From NCBI GenBank assembly GCA_902801885.1, contig CADCJX010000017.1, forward strand, positions 1-50,020: DNA of 50,020 bases, in the 5' to 3' direction. The position numbers and the translations under genes were made by a program. The notes beneath the pieces were generated by a model that saw only the letters and a list, made by a program, of their open reading frames with translations, did no database searches and was not told where the DNA came from. This DNA comes from an uncultured Bacteroidia bacterium. GTDB lineage: Bacteria; Bacteroidota; Bacteroidia; Bacteroidales; UBA932. Positions within the stretch are counted from its first letter, which is position 1, and every line of letters starts with the position of its first letter. Shown here one piece after another: positions 2,546 to 45,713 of this stretch.

Positions 2546-3796
2546 ATGAGATTCGACATTGACAGATACAAAGAGATAATCGACACCCTGGCCCGCAACC
2601 GAAGCAGGACCCTACTGACCGGTTTCGGAATATTCTGGGGAATATTCATGCTCCTGATCATGCTTGGAGGCGGAGATGGCCTTAAGTCCATCCTGAACCA
2701 GAACTTTGCCGGTTTCACTTCCAATTCGGTGATAGTGGGATGCAACAAGACAACCAAGCCTTACGGCGGGTTCAAGAGGGACCGTACCTGGCATCTAGAT
2801 AATAACGACATAGAAGCCATCAAAACCCTCGTACCGGAGACAGATGTCGTGACCATGATGGACTCCGACTGGGGACAGGGAATGTCTTACAAGGAAAACA
2901 CCTATTCCGGAATCCTCAAGGGCCTTTCCTATGAATATGTCAACATTGAAACGCCTAAAATGCTCTATGGGCGTTGGATAAACGAAGTGGACTGCGAACA
3001 GGAGAGAAAGGTCTGTGTGATTGGCAAAAGGGTGTATTCCAACCTGTTTCCCGAAGGAGGTGACCCGACAGGAGAGTACATAAAAGTCAAGGATTCATAT
3101 TTCCAGGTCATAGGAGTGGATGACCGGAATTCAGGAATAAACATCAATGGCAGCCCTAACCAGAGCGTTGTCATTCCTTACCAGCTGATGAACAGGCTGA
3201 ACAACAGGGGAGGCAAGTTCGACATCATCTGCATGACCCTCAAGGAGGGAGTGGATTCGGATGCAGCCCAGGACAAGGTTCGTGGCATCCTTTCAAGACG
3301 CCATTCCATAGCTCCGGACGACAGCAATGCCGTCATGATGCTGGACACTGAAAAGATATTCAGGATAGTAGACAACCTCTTCAAGGGGGTCAACATCCTG
3401 GTCATCCTGGTCGGTCTCGGAACCCTTCTGGCCGGAGCTATCGGAGTCTCGAACATCATGATGGTCACAGTCAAGGAGCGCACTACCGAAATCGGTATCC
3501 GCCGCGCCATCGGTGCAACTCCCAAGATGATACTTTCTCAAATCATAACCGAGAGTATCGGCCTTACAATATTGTCAGGAATGTTCGGAATACTGTTTTC
3601 AGTGCTGATCCTATGGGGTGCAGGCAGTATTGTGTCCTCCATGCCTGACATCGGGTCACCGGTGTCTTTCCAGATTGGCTTCTGGACAGGAATAGCCGTA
3701 CTGCTGCTCCTGGTCGTTCTGGGAGTCCTGGCAGGACTTGCTCCCGCCCTCAGGGCAATGAATATCAAGCCTGTGGATGCAATGAGAGATGAATAA
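2546..3796 (+). CDS. MacB-like ABC permease (FtsX family), second of a pair
   Basis: A 416-aa paralogue of the preceding permease with the same order of parts: an N-terminal membrane segment (GFGIFWGIFMLLIML), a periplasmic domain, and three C-terminal membrane segments with VSNIMMVTVKERTTEIGIRRAIGA and the end motif PALRAMNIKPVDAMRDE. Having two different permeases with one ATPase implies a heteromeric transporter rather than a MacB homodimer. A copy of the dispersed hairpin repeat begins at its stop codon and fills the spacer before the adaptor gene. Confidence 0.9.
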   Translation: MRFDIDRYKEIIDTLARNRSRTLLTGFGIFWGIFMLLIMLGGGDGLKSILNQNFAGFTSNSVIVGCNKTTKPYGGFKRDRTWHLDNNDIEAIKTLVPETDVVTMMDSDWGQGMSYKENTYSGILKGLSYEYVNIETPKMLYGRWINEVDCEQERKVCVIGKRVYSNLFPEGGDPTGEYIKVKDSYFQVIGVDDRNSGININGSPNQSVVIPYQLMNRLNNRGGKFDIICMTLKEGVDSDAAQDKVRGILSRRHSIAPDDSNAVMMLDTEKIFRIVDNLFKGVNILVILVGLGTLLAGAIGVSNIMMVTVKERTTEIGIRRAIGATPKMILSQIITESIGLTILSGMFGILFSVLILWGAGSIVSSMPDIGSPVSFQIGFWTGIAVLLLLVVLGVLAGLAPALRAMNIKPVDAMRDE

Positions 3797-3823
3797 TGTC
3801 ATCCTGAGCGAAGCGAAGGAACT
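3797..3823 (+). repeat. Dispersed hairpin repeat, copy A (between permease and adaptor)
   Basis: A 27-bp unit with core TCCTGAGCGAAGCGAAGGA (3802-3820). The core folds as TCCT/AGGA, then a tandem G-A mismatch, then GC/GC closing a GAA loop. It directly follows the permease stop codon (3794-3796). Related copies lie near 14186-14257, 24421-24462, 36129-36155 and 45239-45265. Confidence 0.75.
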
Positions 3824-3854
3824 GAATAAAAGAAAAGAAATAAAGAACGATAAT

Positions 3855-4949
3855 ATGAAAAAGAACCTTAAGTACATCATCCTGGCGCTGGTCGCCATAG
3901 TGTTCATAGGTACCTTCGTGGCCCTGTGGAGGAACTCCCGTCCGAAGGAGATCCGTTACGAACAGCTGGAGGCCTCCATCAAGGACATCCGCAAGACTTC
4001 CGTCGTGACCGGAAAGATCATTCCCCGTGACGAGGTCAACATCAAGCCACAGATCAGCGGCATCATCTCCGAGCTTTATAAGGTTGCCGGGGAGAAAGTA
4101 ACCGAAGGTGAGGTCATAGCAAAAGTGAAGGTCATCCCTGAGATGAGTTCGCTGAGTTCCGCCCAGTCCAGGGTCCGCTTAGCCGAGATCAACCTCAAGC
4201 AGGCCCAGACCAACTACGATCGTGAGAAGGCCCTGTTCGACAAGAATCTGGTGAGTGCCGAGGAATATGACCAGGTGCGCCAGGCTCTTGACCAGGCCAA
4301 GGAAGAGAAGGCTGCAGCCATCGAGACCCTCGAGGTTGTCCGTGACGGTGTTTCGAAGAGCAACGCCAAGTCCAGCTCGACTCTTATCCGCTCAACCATC
4401 TCAGGTCTCATCCTTGACATTCCAGTCAAGGTCGGTAACTCCGTGACCCAGAGCAACACCTTCAACGACGGAACAACCATCGCCACCGTGGCCAACATGG
4501 GAGACCTGATCTTCGACGGCTTTATCGACGAGACGGAGGTCGGCCGTGTCAAGGAAGGCGTTCCGATGAAGATCACAGTCGGTGCACTCAAGGACGTGCA
4601 GCTGGACGCCGTGATGGAGTTCATCTCGCCCAAGGCCCAGGAAAAGAACGGGACCAACGAGTTCGAGATCAAGGCGGCACTGACCGTTCCTGACAGCGTC
4701 ACCGTCCGTTCAGGCTACAGCGCCAATGCGGAAATCCTTTTGGAGGGGGTTGAGGGAGTCCTTTCGGTTCCCGAAAGTGCGCTGACCTTCAGCGGAGATT
4801 CTTCTTTCGTCTACCTTGTCAAGGGGGAGAAAAAGTACGAGAAAATACCTGTAACCACCGGCCTTTCCGACGGGATCAACATTGAGATCAAAGCCGGCCT
4901 GAAGGAGGGTGACAAAGTTCGTGGCAACCAGATAATCGAGAAGAATTGA
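3855..4949 (+). CDS. Efflux periplasmic adaptor (HlyD/MacA-type membrane fusion protein)
   Basis: A 364-aa adaptor that bridges the inner-membrane ABC permeases to the outer-membrane channel. The start at 3855 gives MKKNLKY followed by one membrane anchor (IILALVAIVFIGTFVALW). Then come a lipoyl-like half (VNIKPQISGIISELYKVAGEKV), an alpha-helical hairpin rich in Gln/Ala/Glu (about residues 95-165), the second lipoyl half (STISGLILDIPVKVGNSV) and beta-barrel domains. An upstream in-frame ATG at 3789 would add 22 residues encoded mostly by the hairpin repeat; I prefer 3855 because it begins directly at the anchor. The stop overlaps the next gene's start (TGATG), indicating coupling. Confidence 0.9.
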   Translation: MKKNLKYIILALVAIVFIGTFVALWRNSRPKEIRYEQLEASIKDIRKTSVVTGKIIPRDEVNIKPQISGIISELYKVAGEKVTEGEVIAKVKVIPEMSSLSSAQSRVRLAEINLKQAQTNYDREKALFDKNLVSAEEYDQVRQALDQAKEEKAAAIETLEVVRDGVSKSNAKSSSTLIRSTISGLILDIPVKVGNSVTQSNTFNDGTTIATVANMGDLIFDGFIDETEVGRVKEGVPMKITVGALKDVQLDAVMEFISPKAQEKNGTNEFEIKAALTVPDSVTVRSGYSANAEILLEGVEGVLSVPESALTFSGDSSFVYLVKGEKKYEKIPVTTGLSDGINIEIKAGLKEGDKVRGNQIIEKN

Positions 4950-14168: not shown

Positions 14169-14275
14169 AGAAAGAGGCTGACCAAAGAGATTCTTCACTT
14201 CGTTCAGAATGACAGTTGCATGTCATTCTGAGGCAGGTAACACCTGCCGAAGAATCTTTTTGGTCAGTCCCTTTC
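14169..14275 (+). repeat. Inverted pair of dispersed hairpin repeats (copies B and C), composite palindrome
   Basis: Between convergent trpB and aroC. Copy B is on the minus strand (14186-14212, core TTCTGAACGAAGTGAAGAA). Copy C is on the plus strand (14221-14257): ATTCT (14225-14229) and AGAAT (14251-14255) flank GA/GA mismatches and a separate inner stem GGCAGGT/ACCTGCC. Flanking sequence extends the symmetry: CTGACCAAA on the left mirrors TTTGGTCAG on the right. The whole can fold as one long hairpin and may end transcription from both sides. Confidence 0.75.
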
Positions 14276-14330
14276 TGTAATTGATTGGTTATTAAAGGTT
14301 TGAATAAACCGATTTTTTTAGGGGCGGTGC

Positions 14331-23306: not shown

Positions 23307-25322
23307 TCAGGAAAGTCTGTTCCAAATGTCTAAGAAGGCGGGGAAGGATTTGGCGACACAGGCGGTGTCATCGATGATGACCGGGCTGTCGGCGCCGAGC
23401 GAAGCCACGGTCAGCGCCATCGCCATGCGATGATCATGGAATGAGGAATAATCACCTCCCTTCAGGAGTGTTCCGTTCAGCAGGCGGCTCTCGAGAGTCT
23501 GCCCCGGAACGATCATCATGTCCCCTTCGGCGAAGGCCACGACACCCATCTTATTCAACATCTCCAAAATCGCCTTGCCACGGTCGCTCTCCTTGCTTGC
23601 AAGCCTCCTGAACCCAAGGATATGGCTCTCTCCACCGCAGAAAGCGGCTAGCACCGAAACGATAGGGAAAAGGTCCGGGCAGTTGTTGAGGTCGGTGTCG
23701 AAGGCTCTCAAAGGAGCCCTCTGAGATGTGATCACGCCCGATTCATCCAACTGGGAAAGACTGGCTCCGGCATCCATCAGGATGTCCATTATGGAGATGT
23801 CAGCCTGGAGGGAAGAGGTGTCAAGCCCAGAAAGCTGGACCTTGCCGAACACCGCCCCTGCAACCAGGAAATTGGCAGCTGCGCTCCAGTCCCCCTCGAT
23901 GTCGAAGGATGCGGGAAGATATTCCTGACCACCTTTGATCTTGAATGTAACCCCAGTGCAGAGACTCCAGTCCTGGGTCTCCATGAATTCCTCATCACCC
24001 TCCATCTCGCTGCCGATCCGGATACCGAATTTCTTCAGCACATCCACCGTTATGAACATGTAGGGGATGCTCTTGGGATCGTGGACATGGATGGTCGAAT
24101 CGCCCTGGAGTAGGGGCAGGGCCATCAAAAGGCCTGAAATCAACTGTGAGCCATCCTTCCCGGAGATGTCGTTCTTCCCGGGCAGGAGCGGTCCTTGCAC
24201 TGAAAGAGGAACTTTGATCTCACCGGTCTGCTCGTTCAGCGGTCTCAGAACGGTTCCGAACCTGGCCATTATCTCTGAAGCCCCTTTCAAGGGACGGCCC
24301 AAAAGGGTTCCTTCGCCGGTGATGTCTGTCTTGGAGCCGGATCCCGGATGTTGCATGGCAGCCGTGAGCGGAATCATAAGGCGGGTGAGAAGGCCGGATT
24401 CGCCGACATGGAGACTCGTCAGATTCTTCGCTGCGAGGTCCTTCGCTTCGCTCAGGATGACAGTGGTGTTGGAGACAGTGACATCGGCGCCAAGGGCTTT
24501 GGCAACATTGATGGCGGCTTCATTGTCGCCGCAGGGGGAGTAGCCATTGAGAACCGTTGTGCCCTGGCCGGAGCGGCATGCAAGGGCGGCGGCGATGATT
24601 GCCCGTTGGGCGAAACTCTTTGAGGACGGCATCTCAACTATCTCCTTGCCGGACAGCGGTTTCCTGTTCCCGTACACTTCCTCTGTCATCTCTGAATATG
24701 CCCACTGTCCCGGGGCTGCGGCCTCCTGTTCGGACAGAGCTGCATAGGTGAACGGAGCTCCCCTTCGAAGACATTCGACACGGGATTGCCTGCCAGGGGC
24801 ACCCATGGCAAAAGCTACAAGTCGGTTAGGATCGTCATGATCATAAAGGGATAGGATCCTGACAGCATCTTCTTCTGAGCCAGCCATGCCTACCACCTTC
24901 ACGATCTCTCCTCCGAATTTCCTGCATTTTTCCGCGGCTTGGAGGAGGGTTTCTTCAGAAGGAACCCCATGGAAAAAATGGCACGAACGGATCATGGTCG
25001 TACCGAACTCATTGCAAGCCCTTCTCAGGCGTTTTCCAATCTCCTTGGGAGCTTCGATTTCCAGATCTACGAAAGCTGCTCCGGCTTCGATTGCCTTTCT
25101 TAGCTTGGCTTCGGCCTCTTCCCATGTACCGCTTCCGTCTCCGGCAACCCGGCAGGTGGCTATCAAAGGAGTGTCTGAACTGGAGAACAGTTCTTCGATC
25201 CCATCCAAGTCGAGTGGGCATCGGTCAAGCCGGATCTCGGCCATCTGGATTGTTGGAGAGCTGTTTTCCAGGAGGTCGAAGATTTCTTCAAGAGAGCGGT
25301 TCTGAAGAGTTGTACAGATCAT
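23307..25322 (-). CDS. aroDA: Fused type I 3-dehydroquinate dehydratase and EPSP synthase
   Basis: A 671-aa bifunctional shikimate enzyme. Residues ~1-215 are type I dehydroquinase: MAEIRLDRCPLDLDG, His115 in MIRSCHFF and the Schiff-base Lys142 in GGEIVKVVGMAG. Residues ~222-671 are EPSP synthase: EMPSSKSFAQRAII with the substrate Lys, LHVGESGLLTRL, FDIEGDWSAAANFLVAGA, and SSFHDHRMAMAL near the end. The two activities are not consecutive in the pathway (shikimate dehydrogenase and kinase come between). A 42-bp repeat lies in frame at 24421-24462 and adds 14 residues (VILSEAKDL...) on the loop before LHVGESG. The start overlaps aroB by 4 bp (ATGA). Confidence 0.93.
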   Translation of the reverse strand: MICTTLQNRSLEEIFDLLENSSPTIQMAEIRLDRCPLDLDGIEELFSSSDTPLIATCRVAGDGSGTWEEAEAKLRKAIEAGAAFVDLEIEAPKEIGKRLRRACNEFGTTMIRSCHFFHGVPSEETLLQAAEKCRKFGGEIVKVVGMAGSEEDAVRILSLYDHDDPNRLVAFAMGAPGRQSRVECLRRGAPFTYAALSEQEAAAPGQWAYSEMTEEVYGNRKPLSGKEIVEMPSSKSFAQRAIIAAALACRSGQGTTVLNGYSPCGDNEAAINVAKALGADVTVSNTTVILSEAKDLAAKNLTSLHVGESGLLTRLMIPLTAAMQHPGSGSKTDITGEGTLLGRPLKGASEIMARFGTVLRPLNEQTGEIKVPLSVQGPLLPGKNDISGKDGSQLISGLLMALPLLQGDSTIHVHDPKSIPYMFITVDVLKKFGIRIGSEMEGDEEFMETQDWSLCTGVTFKIKGGQEYLPASFDIEGDWSAAANFLVAGAVFGKVQLSGLDTSSLQADISIMDILMDAGASLSQLDESGVITSQRAPLRAFDTDLNNCPDLFPIVSVLAAFCGGESHILGFRRLASKESDRGKAILEMLNKMGVVAFAEGDMMIVPGQTLESRLLNGTLLKGGDYSSFHDHRMAMALTVASLGADSPVIIDDTACVAKSFPAFLDIWNRLS
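24421..24462 (-). repeat. Dispersed hairpin repeat inside aroDA (copy D)
   Basis: A 42-bp insertion (14 codons) within the EPSP synthase part. On the coding strand it begins TGTCATCCTGAGC and contains the core TCCTGAGCGAAGCGAAGGA (plus-strand 24439-24457); a further GCGAAGAATCT end follows. It is stop-free in the gene's frame and encodes VILSEAKDL. Confidence 0.75.
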
Positions 25323-36128: not shown

Positions 36129-36155
36129 TGTCATTCTGAACGAAGTGAAGAATCT
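36129..36155 (+). repeat. Dispersed hairpin repeat, copy E
   Basis: A 27-bp unit TGTCATTCTGA...GAAGAATCT with core TTCTGAACGAAGTGAAGAA (36134-36152), identical in core to copy B at 14186-14212. It stands in a gene-free spacer. Confidence 0.75.
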
Positions 36156-36355: not shown

Positions 36356-36429
36356 TGATTCCGTTGGGATTCGAACCCAAGACCCACAGCTTAGAAGGCT
36401 GTTGCTCTATCCAGCTGAGCTACGGAACC
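36356..36429 (-). tRNA. tRNA-Arg (anticodon TCT)
   Basis: A 74-nt cloverleaf on the minus strand: acceptor GGTTCCG with CGGAATC and discriminator A, D-arm AGCTGGATA, anticodon loop CTTCTAA within stem CAGCC/GCTG-type pairing, normal T-loop TTCGAAT. It decodes AGA/AGG. CCA is not encoded. Confidence 0.93.
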
Positions 36430-41779: not shown

Positions 41780-42859
41780 ATGAACAAGAAGGTCGGGAAT
41801 ATTCTCAAGTACTCTTTGTCCATCCTGCTTGCCGTCGCACTCCTGTATTTCGCTTTCAAGGACGTCGATTGGTCCGAGTTCTGGACAGCTCTCAAAGCAT
41901 GTAGATGGGAATTCGTAGTTCTTTCCATGGCCTTCGGTACCCTGGCCTTCTTCTGCCGGGCAATGAGATGGCGTCAGCTCCTGCTTCCGATCGACAAGTC
42001 AACTTCTGGCCTTACCTGTTTCAATGCAGTCAACATTAGTTATCTGGTGAACATGGTCCTGCCACGCGTCGGGGAAATTGTAAGGTGCGGTTACATCACG
42101 GCACATTCCAAGAAAGTCCAGGACGATGAAAGCGGACAGCCCCACAGGCTTGCAACCTTCGACAAGGTACTTGGTACGGCAGCCCTTGACAGGATGGTGG
42201 ACATCATCATGCTGCTGCTGTTCCTGTTCACATTCCTGCTTTTCACATGGAAGCGTTTCGGAGGCTTTTTCTCCGAGAAGATATTCGGCGCAGCATCCGG
42301 CAGTGTCACTGCTGCCAAGGTGACTGTGGCCGTGGGTGTCGTTGTCTTTGCGGTGCTTTTCATTTGGATGATAATCCGTTATGCCGACCGGTGGAAGCCC
42401 CTGGGCAAGATCAAGGACTTTTGCGTGGGACTTGGACAGGGTTTTGTCAGCTGCCTGAAGATGGAGAAGGCTTGGCAGTTTTTTGCATGGTCACTGGCAA
42501 TCTGGATTTGTTACTGGATGATGAGTGCAACCATCCTGTGGGCCGTCCAAGGGATTGACATCTCATCCGTTCCCTCCGACATGGCATCTGCTGTTTCCCT
42601 CGTAAATGGCCTTAACCTGACGGATGCCATGTTCCTGATGCTTGCAGGAAGCCTTGCTTCAATCGTACCGGTTCCCGGTGGTTTCGGTGCCTTCCATTTC
42701 ATTGTGGCCGGAGCCTTGTCCTACACTTATGGGATACCCTTCGGATTCGGAATGATCTTCGCCACCCTGTCCCATGAATCCCAGGCCATCAACCAGATCA
42801 TCTGGGGAATGATTTCCTACATCAGCGAACATTTTAGAAAAAACAATAATGAAGTCTAG
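41780..42859 (+). CDS. YbhN/LPG-synthase-type flippase-like membrane protein
   Basis: A 359-aa integral membrane protein of the lysylphosphatidylglycerol synthase transmembrane (UPF0104/AglD-like) family. Marks: LLYFAFKDVDWSEFWTAL after the first segment, NISYLVNMVLPRVGEIVRCGYI, KVLGTAALDRMVDI, and the C-terminal PVPGGFGAFHFIVAGAL. Members act in polyprenol or lipid translocation. The frame extends upstream, but ATG at 41780 directly follows a promoter. It overlaps the GH106 start by 11 bp, so it is transcribed with the pectin-degrading genes although its role there is unclear. Confidence 0.87.
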   Translation: MNKKVGNILKYSLSILLAVALLYFAFKDVDWSEFWTALKACRWEFVVLSMAFGTLAFFCRAMRWRQLLLPIDKSTSGLTCFNAVNISYLVNMVLPRVGEIVRCGYITAHSKKVQDDESGQPHRLATFDKVLGTAALDRMVDIIMLLLFLFTFLLFTWKRFGGFFSEKIFGAASGSVTAAKVTVAVGVVVFAVLFIWMIIRYADRWKPLGKIKDFCVGLGQGFVSCLKMEKAWQFFAWSLAIWICYWMMSATILWAVQGIDISSVPSDMASAVSLVNGLNLTDAMFLMLAGSLASIVPVPGGFGAFHFIVAGALSYTYGIPFGFGMIFATLSHESQAINQIIWGMISYISEHFRKNNNEV

Positions 42860-45713
42860 CAGAATCATTTTGATCACAGCCTTGCTCCTTGTCCTGCCTC
42901 TGGCTGGAATGACGCAGGCTCAGACCAAGCTCTCTTCAAAACAACTCTACTCACAGTTCCAGAATCCGGACAGCCGTTACAGGCCTTTTGTCAGGTGGTG
43001 GTGGAACGGCGACCGTGTCAAGGCCGAGGAATTGGTGCGAGAACTGCACATCCTCAAGGATGCCGGAATAGGTGGAGTGGAGATCAATCCGATCTCCTTC
43101 CCGTCCGGAGCTGACACCCTTGACACAAAGCCTCTCAAGTGGCTGAGTGACGAGTGGATCGACATGCTGAAGGTGGTCTTTGACGAAGCCGACAGGATCG
43201 GTCTTCAATGTGACCTTATCATAGGTTCAGGATGGCCTTTCGGAGCTGAGGACCTGCCAAGGGATGAAAGGGCGGAAGTTCTTCTTACCTATGCTCTTCC
43301 GGTCCCTTCAGGAGAGAGGCTCGAGATGTCGACCTTCCACATATTCAAGGAGATCGATCCGGGGGTAACTATAGTAAACCCCCGCCGTACCCCCGAACTG
43401 GTGTCAGTCTGCCTGGCCCCGGATCCCATGGGAAGCCTGGACGATGCAATCGACCTCAGCGGAAACGTCAAGGACGGCATCATCTCCGTTGACGTTCCTG
43501 AAGGCAAGTGGCAGCTCTATGCCATGGTCAAGTTCGAGTCTTTCGCAAGCGTCATCAACGGAGCTCCCGGGGCTGCCGGATCCATCCTCAACCACATGGA
43601 TGCCACTGCCGTCAGGCATTATCTCGACCATATGGCTGATGCGATTGAGGCCAAGCTCGGCCCCCTTTCCGGTCACCTGAGAGCCTTCTTCGTGGATAGC
43701 ATGGAGCTTGAAGGGAACAACTGGACGGCTGACTTTGCTACAGAATTCAAGGCCCGCAGGGGCTACGACCTTCTGCCCTGGCTGCCTTTTACCATGTTCG
43801 AAGTAGGACGCCTGGGTGATGTCAAGAGTTTTGAATATGGTTCAAAGAAAACTCCGAAATTCCAGGAGGAAGTGGACAGGGTCAGGTTCGATTTCGAGCT
43901 CACAAAGGCCGAACTCCTTCATGAGCGCTACACCAGGACCTTCCTGGGATGGTGCAAGGAAAAAGGCGTGAAATCACGCGCCCAGGCCTATGGTCGTGGT
44001 TTCTTCCCCCTTGAGAGTTCCCTTGGCTACGACATCCCTGAAGGGGAGTCCTGGACCACCAACTGGCTCAAGCACAGGATCGGTGAGGAGATGGGTGATG
44101 AGGACTACCGTCGCGGACGTGGCTACACGATGATCAACAAGTACGTCTCTTCAGCGGCCCATCTATCTGGCAACCGCATGGTCAGTGCCGAAGAGATGAC
44201 AAACACCTACAAGGTTTTCACCACCTCCCTGGAATTCCTCAAGGTCGGATCTGACATGAGTGCCATTTCCGGCGTCACCCATTCAGTGTGGCACGGATTC
44301 AACTATTCTCCACTTGAGGCTGAGTTCCCGGGTTGGATCCAGTACGGAACCTTCCACAACGAAAGGAACACCTGGTGGCCCTATGTAAAGAATCTCAATG
44401 ACTACCGTGCCCGGCTTGCAAGCCAGCTCCAGAATGCGGACATGTACACCGACATCGCCATCCTTCCGGCCAACTATGACATGTGGACCACCATGGGCGT
44501 GCAGACCGAACCGTTCCCGGTGAAGCTTAACATTCCCTACACCTCCCTCATCTGGGAGGCCATCCACAAGACAGGAGGCGGAGCCGACTATGTCAGCGAG
44601 ACCATACTCAAGGATGCTACAGTCAGGAAAGGCAAGCTCTGCTACGGTCCCAAGGAATATGGAACCCTCTTCATCGTAGAAGTCACCGGAACTACTCCTG
44701 AGGTCATCTCCAAGCTCGAGGAGTTCGTCAAGCAAGGCGGAAGGGTTTTCTGTGTCGGCAAATATCCTCAGAAGTCTCTTGGATTCAAGGATTATGAAGC
44801 CCGTGACAGGGAGATAGCTGCAGGAGTAGAGCGCCTCAAGGCCTACCCTGACAACTTTATCCTTCTCCAGAAGCCCGAGGACGGGAAGTATCTCGAGTGG
44901 TACGAGGCTGTCATGGAAAAATATTCCCTGCCTCATTCCATCACTGTTTCAACTCCGGACCGTTTCCTGCTCCAGAATCGCTATGTCACCGATGACGGCA
45001 GCAACATGTTCCTCATGATGAATGCCCACATGAGCGAACCTCGTGAGACAGACGTTACTTTCCCCAGGTCAATCACTTCCGGCAAGCATGCTTGGGTGTA
45101 TGACCCGGCGACAGGCACAAGGACTGCCCTCAAACTTGACAGCAACGGGAAGGTCCATTTCCGTTTCGGTCCTTCGGAGACCTACCTGATAGTCTTCAAC
45201 AAGGATGGCCGCGCCTCATCTAAGAGGAATCCTTCCCCTGTCATCCTGAGCGCCGCGAAGGATCTAGGCACAGCGACTGGCCCCTGGACACTGACTCTCC
45301 ACCAGCCCCAGCTTGACTCTACCTGGACTGCCACCCTTGACACCCTCCAGGATTTCAAGGACATGAAGGATTCTTCCTTCGTGAACTTCATGGGAACGGT
45401 AGTCTACAAGACAACAGTCACCCTTGACGGAAAGGATCTTCCCAAATACATCGACCTCGGCAAGGTTGCCGACATCTGTGAACTGAAGGTCAACGGCAAG
45501 GATGCCGGAATGAAATGGTTCGGAGAAAGAATCTACGACATATCCCCTTACGTCCGGGGAGGAGAGAACACCATCGAGGTGAAAGTCACTACCTTGATGG
45601 GTAACTACATCCAGACTCTAAAGGACAACCGCGCTGCCCAGCGTTTCGTGCTGAGGCGTAACCAGCCTTATGTGTCTGCAGGATTGATTGGACCAGTAAA
45701 ATTATACAAATGA
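42849..45713 (+). CDS. GH106-family alpha-L-rhamnosidase
   Basis: A 954-aa exported enzyme (signal LITALLLVLPLAGMTQAQ). The GH106 start FVRWWWNGDRVKAEELVRELHILKDAGIGGVEINPI (two short blocks) is followed by GSGWPFG, AFFVDSMELEGNNWT and VSAEEMTNTYKVF. The C-terminal ~110 residues form a jelly-roll domain (NFMGTVVYKTTVTL, KVNGKDAGMKWF). It removes alpha-L-rhamnose from rhamnogalacturonan or plant glycosides. A 27-bp hairpin repeat lies in frame at 45239-45265 (about residues 797-806, PVILSAAKDLG) in the linker before the jelly roll. Its stop overlaps the next gene by 4 bp. Confidence 0.9.
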   Translation: MKSSRIILITALLLVLPLAGMTQAQTKLSSKQLYSQFQNPDSRYRPFVRWWWNGDRVKAEELVRELHILKDAGIGGVEINPISFPSGADTLDTKPLKWLSDEWIDMLKVVFDEADRIGLQCDLIIGSGWPFGAEDLPRDERAEVLLTYALPVPSGERLEMSTFHIFKEIDPGVTIVNPRRTPELVSVCLAPDPMGSLDDAIDLSGNVKDGIISVDVPEGKWQLYAMVKFESFASVINGAPGAAGSILNHMDATAVRHYLDHMADAIEAKLGPLSGHLRAFFVDSMELEGNNWTADFATEFKARRGYDLLPWLPFTMFEVGRLGDVKSFEYGSKKTPKFQEEVDRVRFDFELTKAELLHERYTRTFLGWCKEKGVKSRAQAYGRGFFPLESSLGYDIPEGESWTTNWLKHRIGEEMGDEDYRRGRGYTMINKYVSSAAHLSGNRMVSAEEMTNTYKVFTTSLEFLKVGSDMSAISGVTHSVWHGFNYSPLEAEFPGWIQYGTFHNERNTWWPYVKNLNDYRARLASQLQNADMYTDIAILPANYDMWTTMGVQTEPFPVKLNIPYTSLIWEAIHKTGGGADYVSETILKDATVRKGKLCYGPKEYGTLFIVEVTGTTPEVISKLEEFVKQGGRVFCVGKYPQKSLGFKDYEARDREIAAGVERLKAYPDNFILLQKPEDGKYLEWYEAVMEKYSLPHSITVSTPDRFLLQNRYVTDDGSNMFLMMNAHMSEPRETDVTFPRSITSGKHAWVYDPATGTRTALKLDSNGKVHFRFGPSETYLIVFNKDGRASSKRNPSPVILSAAKDLGTATGPWTLTLHQPQLDSTWTATLDTLQDFKDMKDSSFVNFMGTVVYKTTVTLDGKDLPKYIDLGKVADICELKVNGKDAGMKWFGERIYDISPYVRGGENTIEVKVTTLMGNYIQTLKDNRAAQRFVLRRNQPYVSAGLIGPVKLYK
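45239..45265 (+). repeat. Dispersed hairpin repeat inside the GH106 gene (copy F)
   Basis: A 27-bp (nine-codon) in-frame unit with core TCCTGAGCGCCGCGAAGGA (45244-45262). The stem partners and tandem G-A are kept while the loop changes from GAA to GCC. It encodes VILSAAKDL, the same frame as copy D in aroDA. Confidence 0.72.

Follow-up and report, generated by a model that had tools for sequence, protein, structure and literature searches.

A TGTC-tagged DNA hairpin with a conserved tandem G-A step, dispersed in a Bacteroidia genome and recurring across phyla

Copies in the window and the fold they keep

The window analyzed here, a stretch of 50,020 nucleotides, holds six exact matches to TGTCATYCTGA: at 3797, 14221, 36129 and 45239 on the plus strand, and at 14214 and 24462 on the minus strand. 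These are the six places where an initial annotation had put copies of a hairpin repeat (Table 1). With one mismatch allowed there are seven matches, against a mean of 2.4 in shuffled sequence and seven or more in 2 of 100 shuffles. Rfam matches in the window at the gathering score are three tRNAs and none for the hairpin.

Table 1. Hairpin copies and related features of the window
Feature	Coordinates	Strand	Description
Hairpin copy A	3797..3822	+	ATCCT; inner GCGAAGC; foot pair lost
Composite palindrome, ~105 bp	14169..14276	.	pair B/C between arms AGAGGCTGACCAAA and TTTGGTCAGTCCCTTTCT; self-match on other strand
Hairpin copy B	14189..14214	-	ATTCT/AGAAT; inner ACGAAGT; left half of head-to-head pair
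Hairpin copy C	14221..14256	+	ATTCT/AGAAT; 7-bp inner stem GGCAGGT/ACCTGCC; right half of pair
Extra 3' half-copy GCAGCGAAGAATC	24422..24434	-	directly after copy D
Hairpin copy D	24437..24462	-	ATCCT; inner GCGAAGC; foot pair lost; pattern match 24424-24461
Hairpin copy E	36129..36154	+	ATTCT/AGAAT; inner ACGAAGT; intergenic
Hairpin copy F	45239..45264	+	ATCCT/AGGAT; inner GCGCCGC

Copy A occupies the gap past the stop of an ORF at 2546-3796, and the ORF at 3789-4949 reads it as an N-terminal extension. The copies at 14214 and 14221 form a head-to-head pair within the composite palindrome, which sits between convergent ORFs, has complementary arms (fold z = -9.75; copy C, z = -5.27) and looks like a bidirectional terminator. 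Copy D is read in frame as VILSEAKDL within the AroA part of an ORF at 23307-25322, and AroA orthologues lack it at mostly similar length. Copy F is read in frame as VILSAAKDL within a 954-aa ORF (42849-45713), and the related genome G017 also has a copy there. Copy E is followed, as the nearest feature, by a tRNA on the opposite strand (36356-36429). The ORF that holds copy D is itself a fusion of aroD and aroA into one 671-aa frame on the minus strand; in several relatives the DNA matches to the two parts adjoin each other.

The fold that is kept has the form [T]GTC-ATYCT-GA-inner stem and loop-GA-AGRAT-C, with compensatory changes preserving it; its stem comprises seven pairs and two G-A mismatches over nine steps. 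The outer stem had been annotated as 4 bp long, which is true of the copies at 3797 and 24462, where the foot pair is lost; in the other four it is 5 bp (ATYCT/AGRAT). The changes between T-A and C-G in the outer stem and between G-C and A-T in the inner stem, as well as the 7-bp inner stem of copy C, are as the initial annotation described them. Its statement that most copies hold GCGAAGC did not stand, as in the window this applies to two of the six (3797 and 24462). That inner accounts for 20 of the 60 seven-base inners in the sampled own genome and for 138/159 in cross-phylum loci, the latter a biased count because those loci had been found with a GCGAAGC sequence.

When tag and outer stem were fixed and the step left free, GA/GA stood on the two sides in 80 of 93 matches in the own genome (793,520 bases sampled), in 41 of 42 in genome G024 and in 32 of 33 in G005, while Markov controls for the three genomes returned 5, 3 and 0 matches. 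Across phyla the count is 216 of 226, in loci that had been found with a GA-bearing sequence. The seven-base inner form, with its 3-nt loop, makes up 60/80, 32/41, 19/32 and 159/216 of the GA/GA matches; GNA triloops are unusually stable. Longer inner stems also occur, and some hold further nested G-A steps.

In a second search the tag, the G-A step and the A-T foot were fixed and the rest left free, giving 120 genus and 171 cross-phylum matches. Six complementary outer triplet pairs (TCT/AGA, CCT/AGG, CCC/GGG, TTC/GAA, GCT/AGC and GTT/AAC) account for 117/120 and 164/171 of these. The pair just inside the step is G-C or A-T (purine first) in 117/120 and 171/171, and the base before GA is T or C in all 291 (120/120 and 171/171). 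A T/C-GA-A/G context on both strands is the rule for sheared tandem G-A pairs in DNA. The base before GTC is T in 98% of 227 cross-phylum copies, which were found with T there and with GTC fixed; after the stem comes C, then T (80%) or C (16%). The AT foot was fixed in the search patterns, and window copies A and D have lost that pair. Tag and A-T foot are also those of the Neisseria repeat dRS3, whose stem is uninterrupted.

The stem covariation is strong. Among 48 distinct 26-mers compared with 500 shuffles (the rows are related, so that a shuffle fraction is not a probability), 43 cells carry two-sided changes against 9.9 in shuffles (0/500 as many), and the covariation score, which drops when partners are slid, was reached by 0/500. 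Two measures are weaker (19/500 and 14/500), the first being the number of pairs that change on both sides, five of seven. Together with the kept G-A step, these results support the initial annotation of a dispersed, REP-like family with a constrained fold. The short hairpin is not set apart by energy: a lone 27-mer has z = -0.11 on the GA strand and 0.07 on the other under standard DNA energies. Both strands thus fold alike, and the choice of strand therefore rests on the context rule for G-A pairs.

Occurrence, placement and comparison of sites

A search of the whole genome (2.46 Mb in 31 contigs) with GTCATNCTGA N5-30 GAAGRA returned 85 matches, 49 on the plus and 36 on the minus strand, and the reversed control returned 0, so the excess of copies expected by the initial annotation is there. 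In 24 other genomes of the genus the same search found 0 to 53 matches (control 0 to 3); copy number across one genus thus runs from 0 to 85 and is very patchy. A 26-nt match is present in 57 of 247 genomes drawn from the phylum, with up to 66 copies. We take this phylum to be Bacteroidota, since by DNA the closest named loci, L088, L080 and L064 (70-77% identity), come from uncultured Bacteroidia/Bacteroidales.

Beyond the phylum, the exact 26-mer TGTCATTCTGAGCGAAGCGAAGAATC occurs in at least 120 stretches of named genomes, where by our own estimate chance would give about 1e-4 occurrences of a fixed 26-mer in 257 billion bases. The 80 titles among the matches listed fall into about 16 phylum-level groups, and the description of the repeat as widespread was well founded. 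Named among the matches listed are Acidobacteria, Nitrospirae, Chloroflexi, Clostridia/Lachnospiraceae, Nitrospinota, Planctomycetes, Bacteroidetes, Ignavibacteria, Poribacteria, Fimbriimonadaceae (which we take to belong to Armatimonadetes), Omnitrophota, Deltaproteobacteria, Abyssobacteria, Daviesbacteria, Verrucomicrobia and Elusimicrobia. Most hosts are metagenome bins, and some placements may be contamination; the matches listed also include, for example, the isolates Mucilaginibacter sp. SG564 and Winogradskyella psychrotolerans, as well as a complete Brocadia genome.

Placement was counted for 79 copies of the own genome with crude ORF calls that cover 93% of bases. ORFs contain 44 of these copies (27 sense, 17 antisense), another 3 extend over an ORF end, and the remaining 32 are intergenic. 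The in-ORF copies make use of each of the four open frames of the standard hairpin, giving peptides such as VILSEAKDL, CHPERSEES, ILRSAQND and RSFASLRMT. Eighteen of 20 hairpin-bearing proteins match a Pfam family, including FtsA, peptidase U32, UbiE, LacZ, GH92, UvrB, MnmA and DegT. Because copies stand in frame within many enzymes, the element also alters protein sequences, and a peptide such as VILSEAKDL can be taken as a sign of it. In the MnmA at L272:8701-10308, the HUP and PRC-barrel domains are separated by about 140 additional residues, which hold a hairpin copy. Close pairs are head-to-head in 9 of 13 cases in the genus set and in 6 of 40 at cross-phylum loci, where most (30/40) are tail-to-tail.

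We compared 18 sites with the relatives G017 and G020, and both flanks were found in at least one of them at 15. Clean absences were seen at window 3797 (in both relatives), L268 (both), L263 (G017) and L247 (G017). The L254 copy is absent from G020, and G017 has an altered version of it; at several further sites there are differences but no clean gap. The GH92 copy is absent from G017, against which the own genome has 21 additional nt; the sugar epimerase gene likewise has 21 additional nt against G020. At the DegT copy the excess is 36 nt against G020 and less against more distant relatives, and the U32 copy sits in a loop of variable length.

Copies common to the own genome and G017 are window copy F and those in LacZ, the epimerase and U32. 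At the LacZ site the inner stem has changed on both sides (GT/AC against GC/GC), and in the G017 outer stem one pair is broken and another is T-G. The epimerase copy of G017 likewise has a broken outer stem. Copies inside genes are therefore under no constraint to keep the fold.

In UbiE the hairpin replaces about nine codons with no net change in length against four of seven orthologues (of the others, two are 1 aa shorter and one is 8 aa longer), and AroA has a length similar to most of 11 orthologues. A general rule of replacement rather than insertion, which these two genes fit, was rejected, as GH92, the epimerase and DegT are longer and the U32 loop is variable. Copies appear to arise mostly by insertion and sometimes by overwriting.

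Target duplication was not detected: among 137 genus copies, a flank repeat score of 6 or more was found in 7, against a shuffled mean of 10.0. Across phyla a score of 8 or more was found in 5 of 203 (1.15 in shuffles), several of these being tandem arrays. A match matrix had hinted at direct repeats; per-copy scoring placed none above shuffles in the genus, and across phyla it picked up tandem arrays. At L254, about 3010-3060, and its G017 orthologue L426, the two relatives have segments of nearly equal length in which the full hairpin is shifted, with a half-copy then a full copy in one and a full copy then a tag remnant in the other.

Half-copy duplications and known repeats

Some hairpins are accompanied by a directly repeated half of themselves. 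Among 136 distinct full hairpins in sampled stretches of three genomes (the genus set), a 5' half-copy lies directly upstream in 37 and a 3' half-copy downstream in 12, with 0 and 1 of the reverse arrangements. The cross-phylum loci show 30/202 and 10/202, with 4 and 3 reversed. That reverse arrangements are scarce is in part a simple consequence of how tandem duplications are laid out. Near hairpins (within 45 nt), 11-base repeats spaced 13-30 nt apart start at 2.41 per kb, against 0.042 per kb elsewhere, a ratio of about 57 to 1 (36 and 49 events).

The duplication period is 14-27 nt with a mode of 20-21. The flank outside the tag is duplicated as well in 21/37 genus cases and 9/27 cross-phylum cases, for which shuffles give means of 3.3 and 1.6 and maxima of 10 and 5, respectively. 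Arrays of three were seen by eye in some loci (L044, L280, L288 and L298). For seven-base inners, 30 of 45 breaks fall at hairpin positions 10-13 and the rest at 9 and 14-18. The idea that breaks follow the apex is not clearly borne out, as among nine events with longer inner stems one, L257, ends at the apex and the other eight at 10-14. We infer that the half-copies are marks of breaking or mis-copying at the folded element. Our literature search found no account of such half-copy duplication and no later work on CGTC-tagged REPs; searching by peptide and by hairpin letters gave unrelated papers only.

The closest known relatives are the CGTC-tagged REPs, a superfamily described from five phyla including Bacteroidetes and Chlorobi (Di Nocera, De Gregorio and Rocco 2013, PMC3733652). 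The initial annotation called the repeat not explained, which is right only in part: the superfamily has been described since 2013, its mover was left open at that time, and the survey found no transposase (PMC3733652). The survey pruned repeats with more than one mismatch. The two share a small palindrome with an unpaired (C/T)GTC at one end, a short tail, and no flanking transposase gene found (here in 31 Y1 loci, 120 hairpin loci and 247 genomes). The first two stem pairs of CGTC REPs are A-T and T-A, to which the A-T foot of the present hairpin, fixed in the search patterns, may correspond. CGTC REPs are mostly extragenic and in part intragenic, and the TGTC hairpin is likewise found in both settings.

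The differences lie elsewhere. CGTC REPs have an 8-9 bp stem with at most one mismatch, a loop of 4-5 nt and a tail near CCA, whereas the TGTC stem is interrupted by the tandem G-A step, its loop is usually 3 nt and its tail is mostly CT (PMC3733652). Head-to-head dimers predominate in the CGTC families, as they do here in the genus set and unlike in the cross-phylum loci. Their host range is given as five phyla against about 16 groups among the matches listed here, and the available text of the survey makes no mention of half-copy duplications (PMC3733652). Since tag, size, the lack of a transposase and probably the foot are shared, we file the TGTC hairpin as a variant of the CGTC REPs that differs in G-A step, loop, tail and host range.

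Other families offer partial parallels. GTAG REPs with their RAYT (TnpA-REP) genes also consist of tagged hairpins in paired arrangements, and those of the E. coli group have a conserved mismatch bulge that TnpA-REP activity needs (PMC2817692, PMC6006769, PMC8266576), which is a good analogue of the G-A step. Unlike these, with their GTAG/GTGG tag and linked transposase gene, the present hairpin is headed by TGTC and no linked transposase was found. Rickettsia palindromic elements, as cited in PMC3733652, resemble it by description rather than by sequence in being palindromes in frame inside ORFs; that survey assigned RPE-4 and RPE-6 to CGTC families and named Neisseria dRS3 CGTC-1.

Possible routes of dispersal

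We give a probability of about one half to the repeat being a mobile, non-coding hairpin of the CGTC-REP kind, its stem broken by a tandem G-A step, that is moved as a folded single strand by a putative trans-acting activity. The element would move as a folded single strand, probably when that strand is exposed at the replication fork. Tag, foot and G-A step would be the features recognized by a putative trans-acting enzyme, either a hairpin-recognizing nuclease or one that joins strands. Half-copy duplications would arise as side products when the folded element is broken or wrongly copied at a point between its G-A step and its loop. We count in favor of this the 85 copies against a control of 0, the spread of copy number (0 to 85) in one genus, the kept G-A step, the covariation, the pairs of filled and empty sites, the lack of target duplication and the half-copies.

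Counted against the mobile hairpin is that no mobilizing enzyme was found at Y1 loci or among the ORFs of hairpin loci. Further, the short hairpins are ordinary in stability and fold alike on both strands, the shared epimerase and LacZ copies have lost parts of the fold in G017, the UbiE hairpin (no net length change against 4/7 orthologues) is not a plain insertion, and the cross-phylum pairs are mostly tail-to-tail, unlike described CGTC REPs.

More specifically, and only tentatively, we suggest a nearly invariant DNA hairpin, stabilized by a tandem sheared G-A step, that is copied across about 16 phylum-level groups by a putative non-Y1 activity. The points at which this activity cuts or switches would lie about 7-8 nt outside the tag and, within the folded element, between loop and G-A step. 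Half-hairpin duplications of 20-21 nt would be its footprints, and it would be able to overwrite codons at constant gene length. New here are the 44 of 79 copies within crude-call ORFs, the filled and empty sites without target duplication, and the half-hairpin tandem duplications some 57 times commoner near hairpins. That almost identical copies occur in different phyla suggests a common means of copying folded single-stranded DNA. What moves CGTC REPs becomes a testable question through the structural rule (tag, A-T foot, Y-GA-R on both strands), the near-identity of copies in different phyla and the footprints that half-copies leave.

The main rival needs no dedicated enzyme, and a host-driven process of this kind fits nearly as well, although we are inclined to doubt it. 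Folded strands would provoke template switching during host replication or repair, short fragments would anneal by microhomology and overwrite or insert, and arm-to-arm correction would yield the covariation. This route accommodates the half-copies with their 14-27 nt periods and duplicated flanks, the lack of target duplication in the genus set, the overwriting of UbiE at equal length and the small length change in AroA, and the presence of one element in many phyla with no common neighbor gene found. It leaves unaccounted for the near letter-for-letter sharing across phyla, tag included, and why arm correction would spare the G-A step; the very patchy copy number within one genus also speaks against it.

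When the 808 ORFs of 120 hairpin-bearing loci were clustered, five clusters had four or more members and no common neighbor gene stood out; one may still lie among the largest (20 ORFs in 13 loci and 10 in 8, at median distances of 933 and 416 nt). No ORF among the 808 has a Y1-like motif pair.

The initial annotation had pointed to REP sequences moved by Y1 (RAYT, HUH) transposases and proposed looking for a TnpA_REP/Y1 gene flanked by the same hairpins. The anatomy is indeed REP-like, and the own genome has two Y1 genes (26.5 and 23.4 bits, low scores that mark the limited sensitivity of the HMM). The nearest listed copies on the same contigs are about 10 and 13 kb away from them. None of 31 Y1 loci (these two and 29 others, making 18 from the genus and 13 from other families, out of 91 Y1 matches counted) has a hairpin within about 1.5 kb; for two other Y1 matches (G005 C18 and G017 C9) the distance to a copy is about 2.4 kb.

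Within the genus, copy number is 0-5 in the 7 genomes that have no Y1 and 0-85 in the 18 that do (p = 0.010, with no correction for relatedness or completeness). Among the 247 phylum genomes presence is unrelated, with Y1 in 44/57 hairpin genomes against 132/190 others (p = 0.32). Within the limits of HMM sensitivity, a Y1 match is missing from 13 of the 57 and from 3 of the 18 with at least 10 copies (G045 with 55, G283 with 27 and G092 with 11).

Four further Y1 loci were chosen for hairpins on the same contig or genome, and at one of them, in G213, TGTC hairpins are present on a single side, some 0.64 kb upstream. That gene (L436, G213:C1:2248500-2256000, 3254-4350) lies between inverted arms of 132 nt that contain different hairpins, CCCCGGACTTCAGTCCGGGG and GGGCTTCAGCCC, and is a REPtron of its own kind; a linked set is therefore recognizable where present. 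A Y1 enzyme may act in trans on TGTC hairpins. With a tag of TGTC rather than GTAG/GTGG and no Y1 gene found between the same hairpins, we consider mobilization by a RAYT-type transposase unlikely.

It is less probable still that an RNA-level task, as a terminator or in protecting mRNA ends, keeps the hairpin. Gaps between convergent ORFs hold 11 copies in 8.7 kb and those between divergent ORFs 2 in 10.8 kb (on crude ORF calls), and the composite palindrome resembles a bidirectional terminator. Against this stand the copies within ORFs, in sense and antisense, the missing Rfam match in the window and the rarity of G-U intermediates, with T.G at outer pair 3 in 0/93, 2/42 and 0/33 matches.

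A MITE moved by a DDE transposase is highly improbable. In its favor, the composite has inverted arms and three dispersed relatives in G011; against it, the single hairpins of the genus set have no target duplication. Each of the G011 relatives (contigs C53, C20 and C5) has one short-type and one GGCAGGT-stem hairpin, and as the G011 orthologue of the gene upstream of the composite is on contig C36, the composite itself is dispersed.

Palindromes of other kinds were also met. At a sigma-54 regulator site (L262, about 10303) the own genome has a TGTC hairpin and the G017 orthologue L430 a different palindrome, GATGCCCGATCAAAGTCGGGCATGACGGG. At L094, L118, L153, L096, L073, L075 and L082, full TGTC hairpins have on either side one half of a longer related palindrome (GTCATTCTGAGCCCTTCGCT ... 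CTCAGGGTAAACTCCGCGAAGAATCT, whole or in part), an arrangement that would result if a hairpin had inserted into another's loop.
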